Part shown: positions 16,671-39,548 of the stretch, piece after piece
How positions within the stretch are numbered: the stretch's first letter is position 1
Layout: each line of letters starts with the position of its first letter
DNA from: a virus
Strand: one strand, 5' to 3'
Virus record (IMG/VR): IMGVR_UViG_3300030004_000009
Location: 112,704-176,703 of that record
Length of the DNA: 64,000 nt
Made by a program: the position numbers and the translations under genes
The notes under the pieces: generated by a model
Databases searched by the model: none
Told to the model about the DNA's origin: nothing
Seen by the model: the letters and a program-made list of their open reading frames with translations, nothing else

Positions 16671-16978
16671 ACATTGACTAATTTGTAATAGCTTACACCA
16701 TTACTGATTTCTGGCCCTTCTGCAACTAATAAATCGAATCGAGGCTGAGCTGCTTCAGCTACCTCTTTTGAAACAATATATAGTTTCTGAAAATTTGGGT
16801 CAGGATATGGTAATCCTTCTACTTTACTATACTCTCTACGATAGATGATTGTCATATCAATATCTACTTTCCGCTTAAGGGTAATGTTACAACGAGCATG
16901 TCCGTTAAAAGTGAGTACTTTATACCCTAATCCGCTGTCTACTGTTATGCTACTTCCTGTGTAATTAAGGATTTGCAT
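16667..16978 (-). CDS. Conserved phage hypothetical protein
   Basis: 103 residues. The first half is beta-rich (LNYTGSSITVDSG) and the second contains KLYIVSKEVAEAAQPRFDLLVAEGPE, a sequence I have seen in hypothetical proteins of large phages. Soluble, no enzyme motif. Confidence 0.65.
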   Translation of the reverse strand: MQILNYTGSSITVDSGLGYKVLTFNGHARCNITLKRKVDIDMTIIYRREYSKVEGLPYPDPNFQKLYIVSKEVAEAAQPRFDLLVAEGPEISNGVSYYKLVNV

Positions 16979-16995
16979 ACGTTTTAAAATTTAAA

Positions 16996-17301
16996 TTAAC
17001 CTACTTTACTTTCGATTGGTTTCCTTATATCCCTAACATTCTCATTTTGAGAATCTGTAGGATAACTATAACCAAGTCTTTTATTCTCTTCTTCAATAAA
17101 ATTAAATAAGTCTTCTAAACAGTTATAAACTGACTGTAAATACTTATAATTTGTTGAAGTTAAACTTTTACCAGGATCTTCCGGGCCTTTTCCTGGCTCA
17201 CAAAAATTAAGTTTTGTGATTACCCCATTAATGAGTGTTACCTCAAATTTGCCCTCATTGTGCCATTCAAGGCTGTTTTTTATCTCTCTATGATGTTCCA
17301 T
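16996..17301 (-). CDS. Hypothetical protein
   Basis: 101 residues, starting with MEHHREIKNSLEWHN and containing a glycine/proline turn (CEPGKGPEDPGKSL). Mostly helical C-terminal half with acidic patch EEENKRLG. No known domain. Confidence 0.6.
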   Translation of the reverse strand: MEHHREIKNSLEWHNEGKFEVTLINGVITKLNFCEPGKGPEDPGKSLTSTNYKYLQSVYNCLEDLFNFIEEENKRLGYSYPTDSQNENVRDIRKPIESKVG

Positions 17302-18992: not shown

Positions 18993-21050
18993 TTAAAAGT
19001 TGATTTTTAAGTTACGTTTGAAAGATCCTGAGACCCTTGCTATAATTGTATTCTGTTGTGTTTCAGAGAAGCCTACACCTGATAACTGGTGTTCATTAAA
19101 TTGTATTTTAAGTTTAGAAGCCATCACTTCGAGAACCTTACGATTCTCGTTAAGTTTATTATTTAAAAACTCATTGTAAAATGGCCGTACTTCCTCGTTA
19201 TTTACCGCTCCTTCAAGTATAAAGATGAAATGTTTATTACCAGTTTTAAGGGTATTTTCCCAATGGTTTGGAGATAACATAATACTTTTCACTTTAGTAA
19301 AGATATTAGTCTTTACTCCCCATTTCTCTTTAGAAGAAATATTCGAGTTAGTTGGTAATGATGGTTTGATAGTAAAGACACCTTGGTTAAGATTTACCAC
19401 TGCAATATCCATTCTACCTAACACACGTGTGTTATGATGAAAGTTATATATCTCACCATTAAACTCAACTTGTGCTTTAAAACCTGTATTCATTAAACCA
19501 TTATAGTTAACGATAGATAGTTTATAATTACCATCCTTCATCATATTGATATTGCTCCAGGTAATATTTTCAACTCTTACTTCTGGTTCATTAGAATGAC
19601 CCCTCATATCAACATCAAGATTACCAGACATGCTTGATTTACTAATTCCTTTATAAGAACTATAATAAATCTCAGTACCATTAGGTTCAATAGCGTGAGC
19701 ATCAAAGTCAGGAGTTCCTTTAGTATCTTCATCATTCCATTGAATTGAAAATCTTAAGACACCACTAACATCACCACCAGCAGACTTTACACGCTCTTTC
19801 ATTGAGTCAGCAATTCCACCAACATAAGACCATGAAAATGGATTGTCCCATTTAAACATTGATGGTGATTTAGGATTAACTGCTGTAATTAAACTAATAA
19901 GGTTACTAAAGTGTGGCTGTTCAAGTAGAAGTTCAATAGTCTTAGCAGTTGGTACTACTTCTGTAAGGAACTTCTCAATTGTAATTTCTTCAACTTTCGA
20001 TAAAGTCTTAGGATTAACCAAACTTGTTTTCTGTAAGTCACCAAAAATGTCACTTACCTCAGTACTACGATCTGTAAAGACAATATCATTAACACTTATG
20101 TCAGTTGATACTGCAAAACGCCGATCAAGAGATTCAAGATAACCAAGCTCCTCTATTTTCTTCTTTGCTTCTTCTATCATTCGAGGAGTAATAGCTGCAG
20201 TCGGTCTTTTGTAGTTCGTAGGTGCAACCTTCTTCTCATAACGTGGCAAAGCGTCATCAATCTCAATACCAACACTTAAATCTTCAAGGAATGTACCGAT
20301 AACTGAACCTCTTATGTTGTTAAGATAAGGAGTTTTAAGTGAGTTTATCCATACAAACTCATCTTTACCGGTAGTTAATTGGTCGTATGACCTTTTAAGA
20401 AGTAAGAATGCTTTTACCATCTCTACAAATTCAGCACCACGATAAAGTGAACCCTGTTTTGTAAGCTCAATCATTGTTTCAAGTGAATCAATAGTAAACT
20501 CATCAAGTGCACGCTTAAGTGTTTGCTTACCTGTACGAAGGATACCTGCTTTTGAATCACGATCTTTCGCAGCTGTTAACGGTACATTACCAAGTTCTAA
20601 CGAGAAATGCTGCCAATAAATCTTCTTTTCAGGATCAAAGTTCTTAGGTGTACCAACGATTCTTGACTCAGGAAGAAATACATCTGTAATTGGAAGTGAT
20701 TCAATATAATCATTAACTAATGATATACTGTTCTCATACTCTTCTTCTATACCTCCAATGTTAAAATACCATAAACCTTGAGATTTATAGTTTTTGTCAA
20801 TAAAACAGATACCGCTAAATTGACGTAAGAATGACTTACAACAATTACAGTTATTAGACTGTCTTATTACATCATTTTCAAACCCACTTAAGTAGAGTTC
20901 ATACACTTTTTCTCGATCAACATTCTTATAAAAGATATGTTGCTCACCTTTAGCAAGCTGATTGTAGCGTTGCTGGACTAAATTTTTAACTTCACTAAAC
21001 ATAATTTGATCTTTTACAGGCGCACAATACCTGATTTGTTTAAAATACAA
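18993..21050 (-). CDS. Large conserved phage protein with YfaP-like domain
   Basis: 685 residues. The N-terminal part carries a cysteine cluster (SNNCNCCKSFLRQFSGIC) like a small zinc site. Residues of about 440-550 contain FSIQWNDED...PDFDAHAIEPNGTEIYYSSYKG and YKLSIVNYNG, the pattern of YfaP-like (DxDxHxxxPNG) beta-sandwich domains. It is paired with the 127-residue gene downstream, an arrangement I recall from other large phages. Role unknown. A dispersed repeat element falls inside the gene at 20390-20406, encoding LLLKR. Confidence 0.72.
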   Translation of the reverse strand: MYFKQIRYCAPVKDQIMFSEVKNLVQQRYNQLAKGEQHIFYKNVDREKVYELYLSGFENDVIRQSNNCNCCKSFLRQFSGICFIDKNYKSQGLWYFNIGGIEEEYENSISLVNDYIESLPITDVFLPESRIVGTPKNFDPEKKIYWQHFSLELGNVPLTAAKDRDSKAGILRTGKQTLKRALDEFTIDSLETMIELTKQGSLYRGAEFVEMVKAFLLLKRSYDQLTTGKDEFVWINSLKTPYLNNIRGSVIGTFLEDLSVGIEIDDALPRYEKKVAPTNYKRPTAAITPRMIEEAKKKIEELGYLESLDRRFAVSTDISVNDIVFTDRSTEVSDIFGDLQKTSLVNPKTLSKVEEITIEKFLTEVVPTAKTIELLLEQPHFSNLISLITAVNPKSPSMFKWDNPFSWSYVGGIADSMKERVKSAGGDVSGVLRFSIQWNDEDTKGTPDFDAHAIEPNGTEIYYSSYKGISKSSMSGNLDVDMRGHSNEPEVRVENITWSNINMMKDGNYKLSIVNYNGLMNTGFKAQVEFNGEIYNFHHNTRVLGRMDIAVVNLNQGVFTIKPSLPTNSNISSKEKWGVKTNIFTKVKSIMLSPNHWENTLKTGNKHFIFILEGAVNNEEVRPFYNEFLNNKLNENRKVLEVMASKLKIQFNEHQLSGVGFSETQQNTIIARVSGSFKRNLKINF

Positions 21051-21363
21051 TCTTTATATGCTCTCAGATTGTTTGTGTATGCAGAAGGATACGATCCTTC
21101 GATCCCGTGAGGAAGGAGTAACTTATGAACTCGTCAATTGTTAACTCGTACGGTGCCCAACACCGCCTTGCGATACATTTAATAAGTAGTAGTTATACAG
21201 TAGAAACACCGATCAGCATTTAGATTATAAGTGAGCAGGATACTGATCCTCGAGGAATTTACCAGCTTCAGAGACTCATAACCAGCATTACCTTGTACTT
21301 AGATTAACGGCTACTTAGCTATTACTACTGCTTTCCTACTATTTCTTTTTGATTGTTTTGAAG
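21051..21363. other. Gene-free structured stretch beside tmRNA
   Basis: No gene. Hairpins: AAGGAT/ATCCTT near 21083, CGGTG/CACCG near 21149-21163, AGGAT/ATCCT near 21235. GC content is above that of nearby coding DNA. It lies directly 3' of the tmRNA on the leftward strand. Confidence 0.4.
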
Positions 21364-21780
21364 TGGAGTGTATGGGATTCGAACCCATGTCTTACTCATC
21401 ATTATAAAGCTTTCTACATGTTTAACTCAATTTTTATCGATAGTAGAGTTCCATCTATTTAGTTTTACATTCTAACAAATGTTTAAAAGCTTCTATTACA
21501 TTGCAGCTTAAATTAACTTTACATATTCCGCGTTTGGCCATAATTGTATGTTCAACTATCTGATTACACAGCCTAAGATCAGTATACTTTAACCCCAGAT
21601 TAAGGGTCCACTATAACACTTTGTGTTAAGCTGCAATCCTCATAGAGGAAGTCCGGCTTGTCATGGAGATAACTTTACAGTTGCCATTTGAAATTTTGAA
21701 AGTTCTATTTAAAGTGGTCTCCTCACAACCCACTACATGCTTACTTTACTCTGTACGAGCAATCAATACCTGCACACCCC
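21364..21780 (-). ncRNA. ssrA: Transfer-messenger RNA (tmRNA)
   Basis: About 417 nt. The 5' GGGGTGT pairs with 3' ACACTCC (7 bp, one G-U) to form the acceptor, with discriminator A at 21364 and no encoded CCA. The T arm is ATGGG-TTCGAAT-CCCAT. The conserved core TTAAACATGTAGAAAGCTT near the 3' end and GTAAGCATGTAGTGGGT near the 5' end match Bacteroidota tmRNAs. The tag frame 21626-21685 begins at GGC and reads GNCKVISMTSRTSSMRIAA then TAA, ending in the AA expected for proteolysis. tmRNA with SmpB rescues stalled ribosomes. The tag is about twice the usual length. Confidence 0.88.
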
Positions 21781-29413: not shown

Positions 29414-29695
29414 TTATATGCACTCAAATAAGTTGTCTAGCCATTTATGATCTTTGATATCTAGTGCATGTTGTTTTAATACCTGTTCTTTCTCTTCTTC
29501 ACTTGACCATGTAAGTAATTGTGATGCAGGATTTGGTGTTCCAGCATAGATGTCTAAAGCTATCATAAATGGTAACTCTTTTGATCTGCATAATTCTTTG
29601 ATGGTTTCATTATGATGATACGCTTTGTATAGAATTACAATACCTCGTTTACCTTCTGTCTTGATCTCTAATGCATCTGCTATTTCTGTGTTCAT
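29414..29695 (-). CDS. Hypothetical protein
   Basis: 93 residues from the ATG at 29695, which follows the conserved leader AAACCAAATAGTC. A longer frame would run through the adjacent tRNA-Glu and is rejected. The sequence (EGKRGIVILYKAYHHNETIKELCRSKE) looks alpha/beta; no family recognised. Confidence 0.6.
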   Translation of the reverse strand: MNTEIADALEIKTEGKRGIVILYKAYHHNETIKELCRSKELPFMIALDIYAGTPNPASQLLTWSSEEEKEQVLKQHALDIKDHKWLDNLFECI

Positions 29696-29717
29696 GACTA
29701 TTTGGTTTAAATGTAAG

Positions 29718-32490: not shown

Positions 32491-32802
32491 TTACTGCTCT
32501 TTAGGTAATTTAAGAGTTTTCCTATAATCCTCTATAATTATTGTATAAATAGATGGTGGATAATAAAAACCTTCACTATTAATGTGGAGCTCGTCGCCTT
32601 GTTTAAATACAGTATCTATGTCTAAGGGGATATAGACAGGAGTAACATCTCCAGCTTTTGCATTTATTGGTGAGTTTAACCATTTTCCTCTATAGACTTT
32701 ATAAGTTATAGAGTCAGAGGTTGAAGCCACATATGTTCCTGAATAACAGGATTGAAAGCTTAATGCGATTAAGCTGATGAATAAAATAATTGTTGTTTTC
32801 AT
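32491..32802 (-). CDS. Small lipoprotein
   Basis: 103 residues from the ATG at 32802: MKTTIILFISLIALSFQSC is a lipoprotein signal ending in a lipobox Cys, followed by YSGTYVASTSDS and a beta-rich body. The leader contains two tandem copies of the CAAATAATCA element. A longer frame to 32850 reads through that leader. Function unknown; probably envelope-located. Confidence 0.7.
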   Translation of the reverse strand: MKTTIILFISLIALSFQSCYSGTYVASTSDSITYKVYRGKWLNSPINAKAGDVTPVYIPLDIDTVFKQGDELHINSEGFYYPPSIYTIIIEDYRKTLKLPKEQ

Positions 32803-33121
32803 GATTATTTGGTTTTTATGTTGATTATTTGATTTCTTTAGAATAAACATACGCTTGCTACTTACTTTTACATGAACGTGTACACATTATGTTAATAACC
32901 TAAATAGTGTTGATACTGCTTTATAAATGGAAACCCATTTTGTAGAACTATACCTGCAATTAAGCAAGGCTACAAGAATATTTTTCGTATGTTTAGTTTT
33001 TAAAGCTCAACCTTTGCTATAAAAGGTTGAGCCGAGTGTTGTATTACCATCTTTAATATTTCACCACCGTTAAAGACCTTGTCCAAACAGAATGGTATTG
33101 ATGATTTGTAAGCTGGCATGA
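32803..33121. other. Leader and spacer region, no gene
   Basis: 319 bases. Nearest the lipoprotein gene lie two leader elements (32803-32814 and 32823-32834). At the other end, GCTCAACCTTT/AAAGGTTGAGC (33005-33032) is an 11-bp hairpin that probably ends the transcript of the gene at 33122. The rest shows nothing clear. Confidence 0.5.
33005..33032 (-). terminator. Perfect 11-bp hairpin
   Basis: GCTCAACCTTT/AAAGGTTGAGC with a six-base loop, followed in the leftward direction by TTTAAAAAC. It lies 90 bases after the stop of the gene at 33122. Confidence 0.55.
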
Positions 33122-33568
33122 TTAGTCTTTTAGCTCCTCAAATCCTATTCCTTTTACAAGATAGAATTTGTCATCGTCTTGGATAACATCTCCTACTGAT
33201 GTACTACGTACTCCTGGATTCCATTCTTCATCCAGATTCTGTGATTTCTTAAATGCTTCATCTAATGATGTTGCATTAACAAAACCTACATACTTACGTG
33301 GTTGACTTTTGGTTTCAGTAAACTTTAAAGGACCAGTTGCATGATGAATGTGAAATTGTCCTTCTTCCTCCTGAACAGGTGGAAATAACTCTTGCCATTC
33401 TTCATCTATAATACCTGTAAGGTAGAACTCTCTTAAATCTTGTGGCAAATTACTGAAAGCGTCTTGAAGATGAGCACCTTTTTCATAGGCTGCGATTTGT
33501 TCTTGTGTAATAGGAAGATCTATTGTCCTCTCTATTCCACTGTACTGTGAAACTCGTGTTATATTCAT
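33122..33568 (-). CDS. Hypothetical acidic protein
   Basis: 148 residues from the ATG at 33568, immediately after the leader AACCAAATAATCATC. LPQDLREFYLTGIIDEEWQELFP and KYVGFVNATSLDEAFKKSQN are recognisable helices; the C-terminus (GDVIQDDDKFYLVKGIGFEEL) is beta-rich. No known family. Its upstream leader carries a recurrent hairpin motif (33594-33618). Confidence 0.65.
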   Translation of the reverse strand: MNITRVSQYSGIERTIDLPITQEQIAAYEKGAHLQDAFSNLPQDLREFYLTGIIDEEWQELFPPVQEEEGQFHIHHATGPLKFTETKSQPRKYVGFVNATSLDEAFKKSQNLDEEWNPGVRSTSVGDVIQDDDKFYLVKGIGFEELKD

Positions 33569-34293
33569 GATGATTATTTGGTTACTTTTTAATAACAGGA
33601 ATAGCTTCTTCACCTGTATATAGATATACCTTCTACGCGTGCGACTTAATGAGATATCCTTTGTGTAGTTTCAACACTTCTCCCTGCTAGGGTTGTTTAG
33701 ATTTAAGGGAATAGTTTTCTCACCCTTTATATTACCACTCATCAGGATTCATAGCCTGTGGTAACTTTGCATACTCTTTCAATGCTCTAACTTGTTTTGT
33801 GTGGATAGTTATTTAAGGTTTTCTCTATCCCAGCAACCAGGCTTCTACTATTTTTGATTTCAGTGGTTCAGCTTATTCCCACTTCTTCTTGTTTCTCGTT
33901 ATTTGCTTTCATTGGTACAAGTCAATTAAGCTCAACAATTTGTCCTTCATTGTGTTAGTCTTCCCTCTTGGACTACAGAGTGTAATTAAACGCACCGTCT
34001 CCGATTTACACGGATCATAACAACTATCTTATAAATTGCTGTTATAATGGCTCAAGGTCGCTTAGTTGTCTTTTAAACAACATAACTGATGCGTATTTTT
34101 GGCCTTTGCACTACACTTCTTAGCCTGTGTTAGGGTGAGATTGATTACTCACTTGGTCGCTGGCCCAGCTGTTTACTGGCTTTTTAACTGATTGGTTAAA
34201 TAATACATGCATTAGCTAACTTGAAAAGAGTTAGCGGTGATTAATAAATGTCTCACAACATTAATGGCTGTTCATAAACTAGCTTAATTAGAG
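33569..34293. other. Gene-free structured region
   Basis: 725 bases, no credible gene. It contains two copies of a conserved-loop hairpin (33594-33618 and 33705-33726), CCAC..AGG/CCT..GTGG (33735-33762), GGATAG/CTATCC (33803-33830), TCCG/CGGA near 34000, GTTGT/ACAAC near 34066, GTGAG/CTCAC near 34136 and GCTAACT/AGTTAGC (34215-34235). Likely one or more leftward structured RNAs. Confidence 0.45.
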
Positions 34294-34555: not shown

Positions 34556-35035
34556 TTATTCAATGATTTCACCTAACAACCACTCGCGAATGTCAAGAAG
34601 TAAGAACTTCTGAGCAATGTAAGTGTCTGGATTAAAGTTACCAATTCGGTGATTTGGATTTGTCTCAATCCTTTCTGCATTTGCTTTCTCTTTACCCGAT
34701 TCTTCATCACGTTCTTCTTCACAATGTTTCATTCTTGCTTCAAGCCATTTGCGCATTAACATGACTTCAACACGGTTGAGTTCAATGTGAAACATAGCTT
34801 CGTCTTTAATGTCGTAATACGCCTTTTCAAGTGCATAATGACTTAATTTACGAAAGAGAGTGTTTGCTTCATCACTTGTTAGTTTATGATGAAAGACGCC
34901 AAGTAAGATTTGCCTTACTGAAAACAATGACAATGTGAAGAGTGCTGAAATGTTGAAATTTACGTATCTAGGTTCGTTAACGGTTTGTACGTTTGAGGTT
35001 TTAAAGCCTGTTAATGGGATGTTTGATGTGTTCAT
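34556..35035 (-). CDS. Hypothetical protein
   Basis: 159 residues. Helical centre (HHKLTSDEANTLFRKLSHYALEKAYYDI and VEVMLMRKWLEARMKHCEEERDEE) and a C-terminal NPNHRIGNFNPDTYIAQKFLLLD. Leader has two copies of the ACCAAATAATCA element. No known family; higher G+C than surrounding spacers. Confidence 0.65.
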   Translation of the reverse strand: MNTSNIPLTGFKTSNVQTVNEPRYVNFNISALFTLSLFSVRQILLGVFHHKLTSDEANTLFRKLSHYALEKAYYDIKDEAMFHIELNRVEVMLMRKWLEARMKHCEEERDEESGKEKANAERIETNPNHRIGNFNPDTYIAQKFLLLDIREWLLGEIIE

Positions 35036-35080
35036 GATCTTTGATTATTTGGTTTTTATGATTATTTGGTTTCTTTTTAA

Positions 35081-35115: not shown

Positions 35116-35403
35116 TTAATGTTTGTTTTCTGTGATCATAAAGTCATAAGAGTTTCTTGTATTACCTACACTAAATTCCATATAACCATACTCACAATTC
35201 TTGTCTCTGTATTCCTGATTCCCTACTAAATGGTCTTTAGACCATTCTTTAAAATCTTCTTCGTTGACAATCTTAGTATCTTCTGTGTATACTAAAAGAA
35301 TTTCTTTCTTGTGTGTTTCAGAAGAACTTGTATGAGGTCTCATTAATATTAATTTACCTTCTAATACAACTTTGTTGCTTTTGTTCATAATGTAAAAGTA
35401 CAT
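35116..35403 (-). CDS. Hypothetical protein
   Basis: 95 residues. The start at 35403 is kept because ATCAAAGATCATG is shared with the leader of the neighbouring gene at 35035; an ATG at 35388 (MNKSNKVVLEG) is an alternative. KVVLEGKLILMRPHTSSS and a beta-rich remainder. No family recognised. Confidence 0.6.
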   Translation of the reverse strand: MYFYIMNKSNKVVLEGKLILMRPHTSSSETHKKEILLVYTEDTKIVNEEDFKEWSKDHLVGNQEYRDKNCEYGYMEFSVGNTRNSYDFMITENKH

Positions 35404-35796
35404 GATCTTTGATGTTTTTAATATGATGTTATTTGGTTATTTGGTTATTTACTCTTTTGGATATTAACACTCCCTTACTCCTATTTTATTTAAACAATTG
35501 TTTAAAACAACTTTTAATAGTCTGAAAGGTGATTTGTGGTTTTATTTTCATTCATCGTAATATTACGATTGATCGAAAAATGATCATTTTTGAACGAAAT
35601 TGAGCACTTAAATTTACACCACCAAGTTAAAAATAGACTTAGTTCCGTTTTTAGACTAATGGAGTGGATGTGTACTACAAGCTTGTATTTGATCTACGAG
35701 ATTCTCGTAATTGAAAATAACCGCTATGTCGATCGACTATTCCATTCATTTCAATTACAAAATTAACACTCTCAAGTCCATACTAGACATGAGAGT
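35404..35796. other. Gene-free region with clustered perfect palindromes
   Basis: 393 bases, no gene. Perfect palindromes: TTTAAACAATTGTTTAAA (35489-35506), ATCGTAATATTACGAT (35554-35569), AAAAATGATCATTTTT (35576-35591) and TACAAGCTTGTA (35676-35687), plus the odd-centred TACGAGA-T-TCTCGTA (35695-35709). Leader elements ACCAAATAACC lie nearest the left gene. This could be an operator cluster or part of a replication origin. Confidence 0.5.
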
Positions 35797-35830
35797 AAGA
35801 AAAGAGAAAGCTTACACTTTCTCTTTTCTT
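35797..35830 (-). terminator. Hairpin spanning a stop codon
   Basis: A 14-bp perfect stem (AAGAAAAGAGAAAG/CTTTCTCTTTTCTT) with a six-base loop that contains the stop codon of the leftward gene at 35812. Confidence 0.6.
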
Positions 35831-36246
35831 TTAGCTGGTTGTTTAACTTCATTTGGATCTATTTCAACATATACCCATTTGTCCTCACCCTCTTTTGCAT
35901 CATGTTTCCATGTTGCTTTATGAGTTCTTTTCCATTCTTCATACTGTTCAAATGTCATATCTACAGCTCGATTAGTTGTAGGTTCACTGTGTATCATTGT
36001 AGTATAGCCGTTATAGTTCTTTATAACAATTATAAATAATGGGACATCAAGTTCGATAACAGAGTAAAGTTTATCTGAATGTTTATAGAAAGGTTCAGTT
36101 CTAACATTTGCAGCTGATGCTTTATTTAAAGCACCTTGAATTACATGATTTGCACCAACTGTAACATTTAATGATAATACCTGAGGCATATCTATTACAT
36201 TAAAAGAGAAAGCATGTACTGGATCAATAACTAGTAATATCTTCAT
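35812..36246 (-). CDS. Hypothetical protein behind a hammerhead ribozyme
   Basis: 144 residues from the ATG at 36246, placed after the leader AACCAAATAATCAACATC. A longer frame to 36273 would read through the ribozyme cleavage site and is rejected. MKILLVIDPVHAFSFNV looks like a buried strand, followed by DMTFEQYEEWKRTHKATW and a lysine-rich C-terminus (KQPAKRKEKV). No known family. The hammerhead cleavage site is 20 nt upstream of the start. Confidence 0.65.
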   Translation of the reverse strand: MKILLVIDPVHAFSFNVIDMPQVLSLNVTVGANHVIQGALNKASAANVRTEPFYKHSDKLYSVIELDVPLFIIVIKNYNGYTTMIHSEPTTNRAVDMTFEQYEEWKRTHKATWKHDAKEGEDKWVYVEIDPNEVKQPAKRKEKV

Positions 36247-36260
36247 GATGTTGATTATTT

Positions 36261-36315
36261 GGTTAAGACACAAACTGTGTTTCGGCTATTCTTTTTTAAG
36301 CCTCATCAGTTAACC
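36261..36315 (-). ncRNA. Hammerhead ribozyme (open stem I)
   Basis: On the leftward strand: stem I GGTTAA/TTAACC, core CTGATGA, stem II GGCT/AGCC with an 11-base loop, core GAA, stem III ACACA/TGTGT with a 3-base loop, then C as the cleavage nucleotide. Every conserved core position of the hammerhead is present. Predicted cleavage is between 36267 and 36266. The cleaved 3' product starts 20 nt before the ATG at 36246 with the conserved AACCAAATAATC leader element. Confidence 0.93.
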
Positions 36316-36564
36316 TTACTTCTTAATTAAAACTATGCTTACACATTACAAGGTAAGACTGATATCTTACTTTATAAGTGACTGTTCCTTGACTTCTATG
36401 CTTACACATAGAGTTACTCCCTCCTTGACTTATACAATATCATTGCACACCGTTTACGCGCGTAGTTCCTTAATGGAAATGCTACGTGATACTAAAATTG
36501 CTACACTATCAATATGTAATGATACACGAAGCGATCTTTAGATCCACGCGTTGTATGCCTTGTA

Positions 36565-36630
36565 TATCGAAGAGCGATAGACCTTACATATCGAAGAGTG
36601 ATAGACCTTGCATATCGAAGCGTAATGAAG
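36565..36630. repeat. 24-bp tandem repeats
   Basis: Units of 24 bases beginning TATCGAAGAGYGATAG at 36565 and 36589 (two differences), with a third partial unit TATCGAAGCG from 36613. The short motif CGAAG recurs at 36526, 36628-36645 and 36651. This is an iteron-like arrangement near the divergent boundary. Confidence 0.8.
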
Positions 36631-36677
36631 AGCGAAGTTAAAATCGAATGCGAAGCATGAGTACTGTTATACCAAAC

Positions 36678-36709
36678 TAAACTATGAGCCCTTTCGGACC
36701 CATAGTTTA
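36678..36709 (-). terminator. Terminator with GAAA tetraloop
   Basis: TAAACTATG pairs with CATAGTTTA, extended by GGTCC/GGGCT with G-U pairs, and capped by GAAA in the leftward RNA. It lies 12 bases after the stop of the gene at 36721. Confidence 0.65.
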
Positions 36710-36720
36710 ATCAACGCTTA

Positions 36721-37308
36721 CTACTTAGGCATAATGTTAAAGGTATAACAATTTGCCTTGTTTTCACTTTGTACAGAACCATCAGGATTCTTCCTGATGA
36801 CGTTGTTTTGAGCATTATCATCTCTGAAAAATGCAGTGCAAACTAACCGTTTGCCTACCAGTGAGTCAATTAACTCACTTGGTTTAATTTCGGGATAAGG
36901 GATAACCCTAGTAACTTCACCGGCAGCATCCAGGAAGGAAAACACTGTTTTAGATTTGCCTTGTGCAAGCAAACCCAATGTAATCTTCTTGCCGTCTTTA
37001 AAGACGATCATCCTTGCATGCGGATTGTCTCCGATATCCGCAATGGTGTATTTCGTATCTTCAGAGCCGTCTTCTTTCTTACCTTTAATGGTAACAGTCT
37101 GCGGTTGAGTAAGTTTACGAACGTTTGGCGCGGTAGTTGTATCGATTTCTTCCCAACCGATGGACACTATCTCACCTGAATAGCCCTGAAACATAGCACC
37201 GGAAATACCGGAGAACGACAAAATAGAAGTGTTTGGGTCAGCTTGTTTAAGCTCTAACTCGAACAAAGCCTTAAGCTCTGCTTTTGTGGGGTTTTTTTTC
37301 TCAATCAT
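36721..37308 (-). CDS. Hypothetical protein, first gene of the leftward block
   Basis: 195 residues. FSGISGAMFQGYSGEIVSIGWEEI, RMIVFKDGKKITLGLLAQGKS and VGKRLVCTAFFRDDNAQNN give a beta-rich protein that might be a nucleic-acid-binding OB-fold, but no motif proves it. The gene is visibly richer in G+C and uses different codons from its neighbours, hinting at recent acquisition or high expression. It has its own terminator. Confidence 0.7.
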   Translation of the reverse strand: MIEKKNPTKAELKALFELELKQADPNTSILSFSGISGAMFQGYSGEIVSIGWEEIDTTTAPNVRKLTQPQTVTIKGKKEDGSEDTKYTIADIGDNPHARMIVFKDGKKITLGLLAQGKSKTVFSFLDAAGEVTRVIPYPEIKPSELIDSLVGKRLVCTAFFRDDNAQNNVIRKNPDGSVQSENKANCYTFNIMPK

Positions 37309-39501: not shown

Positions 39502-39503
39502 TC

Positions 39504-39532
39504 AATAGAGTTACCTCATCAGTAACTCTATT
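39504..39532 (+). terminator. Rho-independent terminator
   Basis: AATAGAGTTAC/GTAACTCTATT, an 11-bp perfect stem with a seven-base loop, followed by TTATTTT, immediately after the stop of the membrane protein gene. Confidence 0.85.
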
Positions 39533-39548
39533 TTATTTTAAATTAAAT

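Follow-up and report, generated by a model that had tools for sequence, protein, structure and literature searches.

Introduction

Hammerhead ribozymes are already known from phages, from a position ahead of a viral start codon and from clusters that may process transcripts (PMC3088659). Hammerheads clustered in prophages have been found to cut polycistronic RNA in vitro, for three natural clusters, and the processing of long phage transcripts has been proposed as their role (PMC3088659). More recently the role of prokaryotic hammerheads was described as an open question (PMC6155905).

We analysed a 64-kb stretch of viral DNA (hereafter the window), which corresponds to positions 112704-176703 of an IMG/VR virus record and in which a hammerhead had been noticed in the leader of a phage gene. 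By motif the element, at positions 36315-36261 of the minus strand, is a complete and genuine type I hammerhead for which cleavage is predicted. Its anatomy, its relatives in other phages and the functions that it may serve are discussed in detail here.

The window ribozyme

Read on the minus strand from 36315 to 36261, the element has the sequence GGTTAA-CTGATGA-GGCT-TAAAAAAGAAT-AGCC-GAA-ACACA-GTT-TGTGT-C-TTAACC. The 5' strand of stem I (GGTTAA, 36310-36315) and stem III (ACACA-GTT-TGTGT, 36268-36280) were located both by motif scan and by covariance model, and the core segments CTGATGA (36303-36309) and GAA (36281-36283) by motif scan. Between the latter two lies stem II, GGCT/AGCC (36284-36302), which carries an 11-nt loop, TAAAAAAGAAT, where most relatives have a 5-nt loop of the form U...U. 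The cleavage nucleotide is C17 at 36267, with a cut at 36267/36266 predicted from the motif, and the 3' strand of stem I (TTAACC, 36261-36266) would form the 5' end of the 3' product. The type I core CUGANGA, GAA, the pair A15.1-U16.1 and H17 (not G) were matched exactly, with three stems of 6, 4 and 5 bp round the core and stem I open. The minus strand thus contains every hammerhead element quoted in the preliminary description, exactly as written there. Fast hammerhead cleavage at physiological Mg2+ relies on a tertiary contact of the stem I region with that of stem II; no pairing for such a contact was identified in the window ribozyme with its 11-nt loop II.

A descriptor scan of the 64-kb window returned this element as the only type I match. 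Across 2,727 order-2 Markov windows, 65 weaker motifs were obtained (about 0.024 per window) and none as strong. A covariance model, R1, was built from 34 relatives with the window sequence left out, and it matched the element with 59.2 bits (E = 5.6e-13); no second real R1 match was found in the 176,703-base record. A further R1 hit of 18.7 bits at 39502-39534 (minus strand) was rejected, being a plain hairpin, TAGAGTTA/TAACTCTA, with CTGATGA in its loop and the rest of the hammerhead absent; this hairpin is located between two rightward genes. At gathering thresholds Rfam missed the window hammerhead. When thresholds were relaxed, two Rfam hammerhead models placed 16-17 bits at the right site, namely RF02275 HH9 (16.3 bits against a gathering score of 52) and RF03152 RAGATH-1-hammerhead (17.4 bits against 56.3). 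Plain MFE folding was uninformative, with z values of -1.26 for the core and +0.54 with flanks, and with flanks included the MFE fold paired the hammerhead core with the start-codon region.

The terminase encoded by the window's phage shows 25-42% identity to those of crAss-like and related gut phages, so that this large virus is a crAss-like or neighbouring phage, and its host is likely to belong to the Bacteroidota. No DNA similarity to known phages was detected for the 28-44 kb part of the window. Only a few close relatives were found for this phage, and the hammerhead is absent from all of them. About 405 nt (36316-36720, minus strand) separate the ribozyme from the next upstream gene on the same strand (36721-37308), and this gap contains short direct repeats: CTATGCTTACACAT and TCCTTGACTT each occur twice within 36333-36434. 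No stop codon of an upstream gene lies inside or adjoins the window ribozyme, since that gene ends some 400 nt away. Sigma-70-type promoters near the ribozyme were no commoner than in shuffled sequences, and Bacteroidota-type promoters (TTTG-N-TAnnTTTG) numbered 6 in the window against 4.3 expected, which was not significant overall. Elsewhere in the window, positions 21361-21780 (minus strand) matched the Rfam tmRNA model with 63 bits (threshold 47) and were not called by ARAGORN; this is possibly a divergent phage tmRNA.

Leader and downstream gene

The predicted cut would leave a 20-nt leader with a 5'-hydroxyl end, UUAACCAAAUAAUCAACAUC (36247-36266, minus strand), and this sequence does precede the ATG at 36246, in agreement with the leader length claimed beforehand. 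The gene behind it (35812-36246, minus strand) codes for a protein of 144 aa. Neither this protein nor the 195-aa protein of the upstream gene gave a match in PHROG or Pfam searches, and no homologues of either were found in IMG/VR.

Within the leader lies the element AACCAAATAATC (36253-36264), which is common to neighbouring genes and has the first 4 of its 12 nt in stem I. Allowing one mismatch at most, nine copies occur in the window against 0.84 expected, all of them in the 29.7-36.3 kb interval of the minus strand, and eight of the nine stand 0-31 nt upstream of an ORF's ATG, at six ORFs in total. The copies not associated with a ribozyme comprise two at 35043-35071, upstream of the gene starting at 35035; one with a single mismatch at 35435-35446, upstream of the gene starting at 35403; one at 33572-33583, upstream of the ATG at 33568; two at 32803-32834, upstream of the ATG at 32802; and one with a single mismatch at 29696-29707, upstream of the ATG at 29695 (all minus strand). 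The leader element which had been said to serve other genes on this strand is therefore real, and the start of the 3' product does fall inside it. Among the genes with this element, only the first in the direction of transcription carries a ribozyme.

Translation in Bacteroidota does not depend on Shine-Dalgarno sequences. Initiation in Flavobacterium johnsoniae is promoted or tuned by As at positions -3, -6, -12 and -13 (PMC6847099), and the window leader has an A at all four. It had also been suggested that stem I hides the leader element before cleavage. This could hold for the first 4 nt of the element, as stem I covers only UUAACC at -20 to -15, but not for the As at -14 to -12, -6 and -3, which lie outside all stems of the ribozyme.

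A family of leader hammerheads

Relatives were sought in IMG/VR with the pattern CTGATGAG...CGAAAC...GTCTTAACC, which returned at least 119 stretches, and with a CTGACGAG version of the same pattern, which returned at least 120. Stems II and III were not required by the scan pattern, and nearly all matches form both. Together with later fetches, the two scans yielded at least 333 distinct type I hammerheads at 198 loci, a large family that apparently has no name yet. Among the 333 listed, stem I is GGUUAA/UUAACC in 278, with 28 different stem I pairs overall, and is 6 bp long in 322; stem II is usually of 4 bp with the 5-nt U...U loop. An A adjoins stem I on its 5' side in 329 and on its 3' side in 327 of those listed (about 98%), and these flanking As and the U...U pentaloop of stem II make a tertiary contact possible in the relatives. 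In the alignment of the 34 relatives, 99.6% of cells were paired, a percentage inflated by the choice of rows by structure scan. The compensatory changes are unaffected by that choice: 13 of 16 pairs had changed on both sides, and the covariation score was 0.604 compared with at most 0.107 for slid versions. The window hammerhead is a member of this family by its R1 match, its cut-to-ATG distance of 20 nt and its GGUUAA/UUAACC stem I.

The position of these ribozymes relative to genes is narrowly defined. An ATG follows the cut after 10-46 nt (median 22) in 324 of the 333 listed. In 158 of 180 hammerheads (the first set listed) a same-strand ORF ends at most 150 nt away, and its stop codon is usually inside or touching the ribozyme: among these first 180 listed, the offset was +6 in 45, +10 in 24, 0 or +1 in 39 and +20 in 11. 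The stop codon is thereby part of the ribozyme itself, as the TAA of GGTTAA (45 cases) or the TGA of CTGA (24 cases), while in the 39 the upstream ORF ends at stem I or 1 nt into it; a single hammerhead of the 180 was found inside an ORF. Leaders of the first set listed are rich in A, which occupies -3 in 72%, -6 in 58%, -12 in 85% and -13 in 77%, and 12 of 153 are Shine-Dalgarno-like. Some phages have several hammerheads at consecutive genes (10 in G001, 7 in G006 and 5 in G004). Genes that lack a ribozyme likewise show a TTAACC peak, at -30 to -10, and in some of their leaders the substrate half of a hammerhead stands alone.

Application of the same pattern to 257 Gb of prokaryote genomes gave three matches; one of these, situated on a MAG contig of 5 kb, was a real hammerhead. 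Eight relative loci submitted to Rfam gave no match at gathering thresholds. Named isolates with family hammerheads include Flavobacterium phage elemo and the Pelagibacter phages HTVC019P, HTVC131P and Jormungand. Many phages of the family probably infect Bacteroidota, although the Pelagibacter members show that hosts are not confined to this phylum. Phage elemo (MT497073) has one type I hammerhead (16975-17032) and one of type III, each upstream of a gene; the type III copy (19067-19121, minus strand) is directly upstream of the second gene. At two loci, L007 near 2686 and L193 near 3042 (reverse-complement coordinates), the leader hammerhead has CCGATGA in place of the core CTGATGA, and on this core change the two copies are candidates for natural inactive versions.

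Substrate half-sites in related phages

In three unrelated phage groups (F, L154 and L350) one full hammerhead is accompanied by one to seven leaders that contain the substrate half only. The arms of the group F hammerhead are GGUUAA and ACACC, and each contig with a complete region has one to five half-sites GGUGUC|UUAACC. In L154 a single full hammerhead occurs together with six half-site leaders, GGUC|UUAACC or UUAAUC, placed on both sides of the ribozyme. In L350, an unrelated phage, the arms are GUAAUA and ACGU and the seven half-sites read ACGUC|UAUUA[C/U]; arms and sites both differ from those of the other groups, and so change together between groups. Most half-sites are preceded by a hairpin that differs in sequence from site to site, and the folds mostly score 2-6 standard deviations below simple shuffles. 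This arrangement is seen at L154:2134-5809 (plus strand), where an ArdC anti-restriction gene is among those preceded by a hairpin and GGTC|TTAACC (or TTAATC), and at L350:472-3650 (plus strand), and also in L352, where the hammerhead is followed by seven hairpin and ACGTC|TATTA[C/T] leaders, including that of an ArdC-like anti-restriction gene.

The half-sites pair best with the arms of their own hammerhead in five of six groups; the exception is L154, which does slightly better with another group's arm, and F against L026 is a near tie. The CGG arm of L040 is unpaired in cis and pairs with the half-site. For group F the unconstrained two-strand MFE fold is a trans hammerhead, and in the enzyme strands of F and L350 the 3' end has an alternative partner, so that refolding would free the binding arm. 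Of 25 TerL relatives of F that span 3.6 kb or more of the early region, five had both hammerhead and half-sites, twenty had neither and none had only one; phage C75C1, a relative of group F, has neither a hammerhead nor half-sites. In the window's own record no half-site was found: TGTGTCTTAACC occurs exactly only at the ribozyme, and its other occurrences, with two mismatches each, all lie away from the shared leaders.

Possible functions

We consider it probable that the window element is a cis-cleaving type I hammerhead at which RNA is processed at a gene boundary, and for the family as a whole the best reading is cutting between cistrons, by which each gene receives a short leader rich in A. 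From the observed motif, position, covariation, recurrence and leader composition, we infer cleavage in the cell, the chemistry of the resulting ends and a benefit of cutting. The leftward transcript would fold while being made and cut itself at 36267/36266. The gene at 35812-36246 would then be carried on a separate mRNA that starts with a 5'-hydroxyl and has a short leader, A-rich and unstructured, and the upstream RNA would end in the stem II and stem III hairpins with a 2',3'-cyclic phosphate. As cutting could occur only when the ribozyme is free of ribosomes, it may be tied to termination on the upstream gene in those relatives that overlap the stop codon. The benefit could lie in separate mRNAs, matched leaders and protected ends. 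Several features speak against processing, namely the short, open-ended stem I, the Rfam scores below threshold and the mispairing of the core in the flanked MFE fold; moreover, the window record holds a single copy, none was found in the few close relatives, and the upstream stop is 400 nt off, unlike in most relatives.

The preliminary description had raised control of translation or of mRNA ends. For mRNA ends the family offers backing, in that a cut 10-46 nt ahead of an ATG is predicted for 324 of the 333 relatives listed and the majority overlap the stop codon of the upstream gene, whereas control of translation by masking is possible yet does not fit the anatomy best. In such a translational switch the uncut stem I would mask the first part of the leader element, which would be exposed by cutting, so that ribozyme activity gates translation. 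The 3' strand of stem I does constitute the first 6 nt of the leader, including 4 of the 12 nt of the shared element, and UUAACC is kept (278 of 333 listed) although stem I can vary with compensation. We nevertheless regard the switch as quite unlikely: none of the As at -14 to -12, -6 and -3 is part of a stem, no ligand domain was seen, hammerheads normally cut constitutively, and the placement of most relatives at stop-start junctions fits processing better. It is also conceivable, if very improbable, that the element is selfish or decaying, or a chance motif without function in the phage. Its single copy in the record, its absence from the few close relatives found and the existence of core-damaged copies elsewhere, such as CCGATGA in L007 and L193, would be in keeping with this, but in the window copy all core bases and stems are intact, it stands in the shared leader at the standard distance from the ATG, and the Markov windows and covariance model exclude a chance motif for it.

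The half-sites pose a separate question, which concerns the related phages and not the window. On balance we lean slightly towards trans action in several related phage groups, in which one hammerhead would cut itself and then the half-site leaders. Such action is supported by the match of half-sites to the arms of their own phage where arms differ between groups, by their occurrence only alongside a hammerhead among the 25 TerL relatives of F, and by the two-strand fold of F and the arm-freeing refolding open to F and L350. Set against it are the shortness of the trans stem III (3 bp in L154, 4-5 bp elsewhere), the better scores of competing two-strand folds at the L154 and L350 sites, the relatedness of the F contigs, whose co-occurrences are not many independent events, and the single site in each of L026, L040 and L072. 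Alternatively, a protein endoribonuclease or binding protein might act on half-sites and leaders, with hammerheads as a second route to the same ends. The hairpin directly upstream of most half-sites and the presence of UUAACC leaders on genes with neither ribozyme nor half-site are consistent with a protein, which we think unlikely, as it predicts neither the match between the bases preceding the cut and the arms of the phage's own hammerhead nor the joint change of both arms in L350. Judged from the sequences, the chances seem evenly balanced that trans action amounts to a ribozyme-controlled regulon, in which a natural trans hammerhead would cut itself, refold with both arms freed and cut one to seven other leaders. 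The window hammerhead would then be a plain cis relative of that system.

Comparison with known systems

The location of the family is sharp: gene junctions, at a fixed distance before the ATG, often over the upstream stop, in viral contigs and not in bacterial genomes. Its function is therefore testable, including in the cultured phages elemo and HTVC019P. Since current Rfam thresholds miss these hammerheads, they have been overlooked in phage annotation. They share with Rfam Hammerhead_1 and its relatives the core CUGANGA/GAA, A15.1-U16.1, H17 and three stems with stem I open. Unlike Rfam's type I hammerheads they fall below every gathering score, and have a near-fixed 6-bp stem I and a fixed place before the start codon.

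In the prophage clusters of Perreault et al. 2011, several hammerheads likewise flank phage genes and cutting of a long transcript was proposed, and an anti-restriction association is common to both, with ardA in those clusters and ArdC here in L154 (PMC3088659). Those hammerheads, however, are of types I-III and belong to prophages in bacterial genomes (PMC3088659), whereas the leader family has a near-fixed stem I, a fixed cut-to-ATG distance and overlap with stop codons, and gave three matches in 257 Gb of prokaryote genomes. HHphage of the haloviruses HF1/HF2 is a similar case, a hammerhead of a lytic virus that precedes a start codon by 13 nt, and differs, as compared by description, in being a structural variant from an archaeal virus (PMC3088659). 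If the half-sites are cut in trans, they would represent a natural trans-cleaving hammerhead with several mRNA targets, of which we found no example in open-licence papers. The discontinuous hammerhead of mammalian Clec2 also has enzyme and substrate parts far apart, as the half-sites require, but it is of type III and lies in cis within one 3' UTR, rather than being one enzyme for several mRNAs (PMC6155905). Judged by the open-licence literature, the new features are the family's size and uniformity, its fixed stop/start geometry, its absence at Rfam gathering thresholds and the half-sites.
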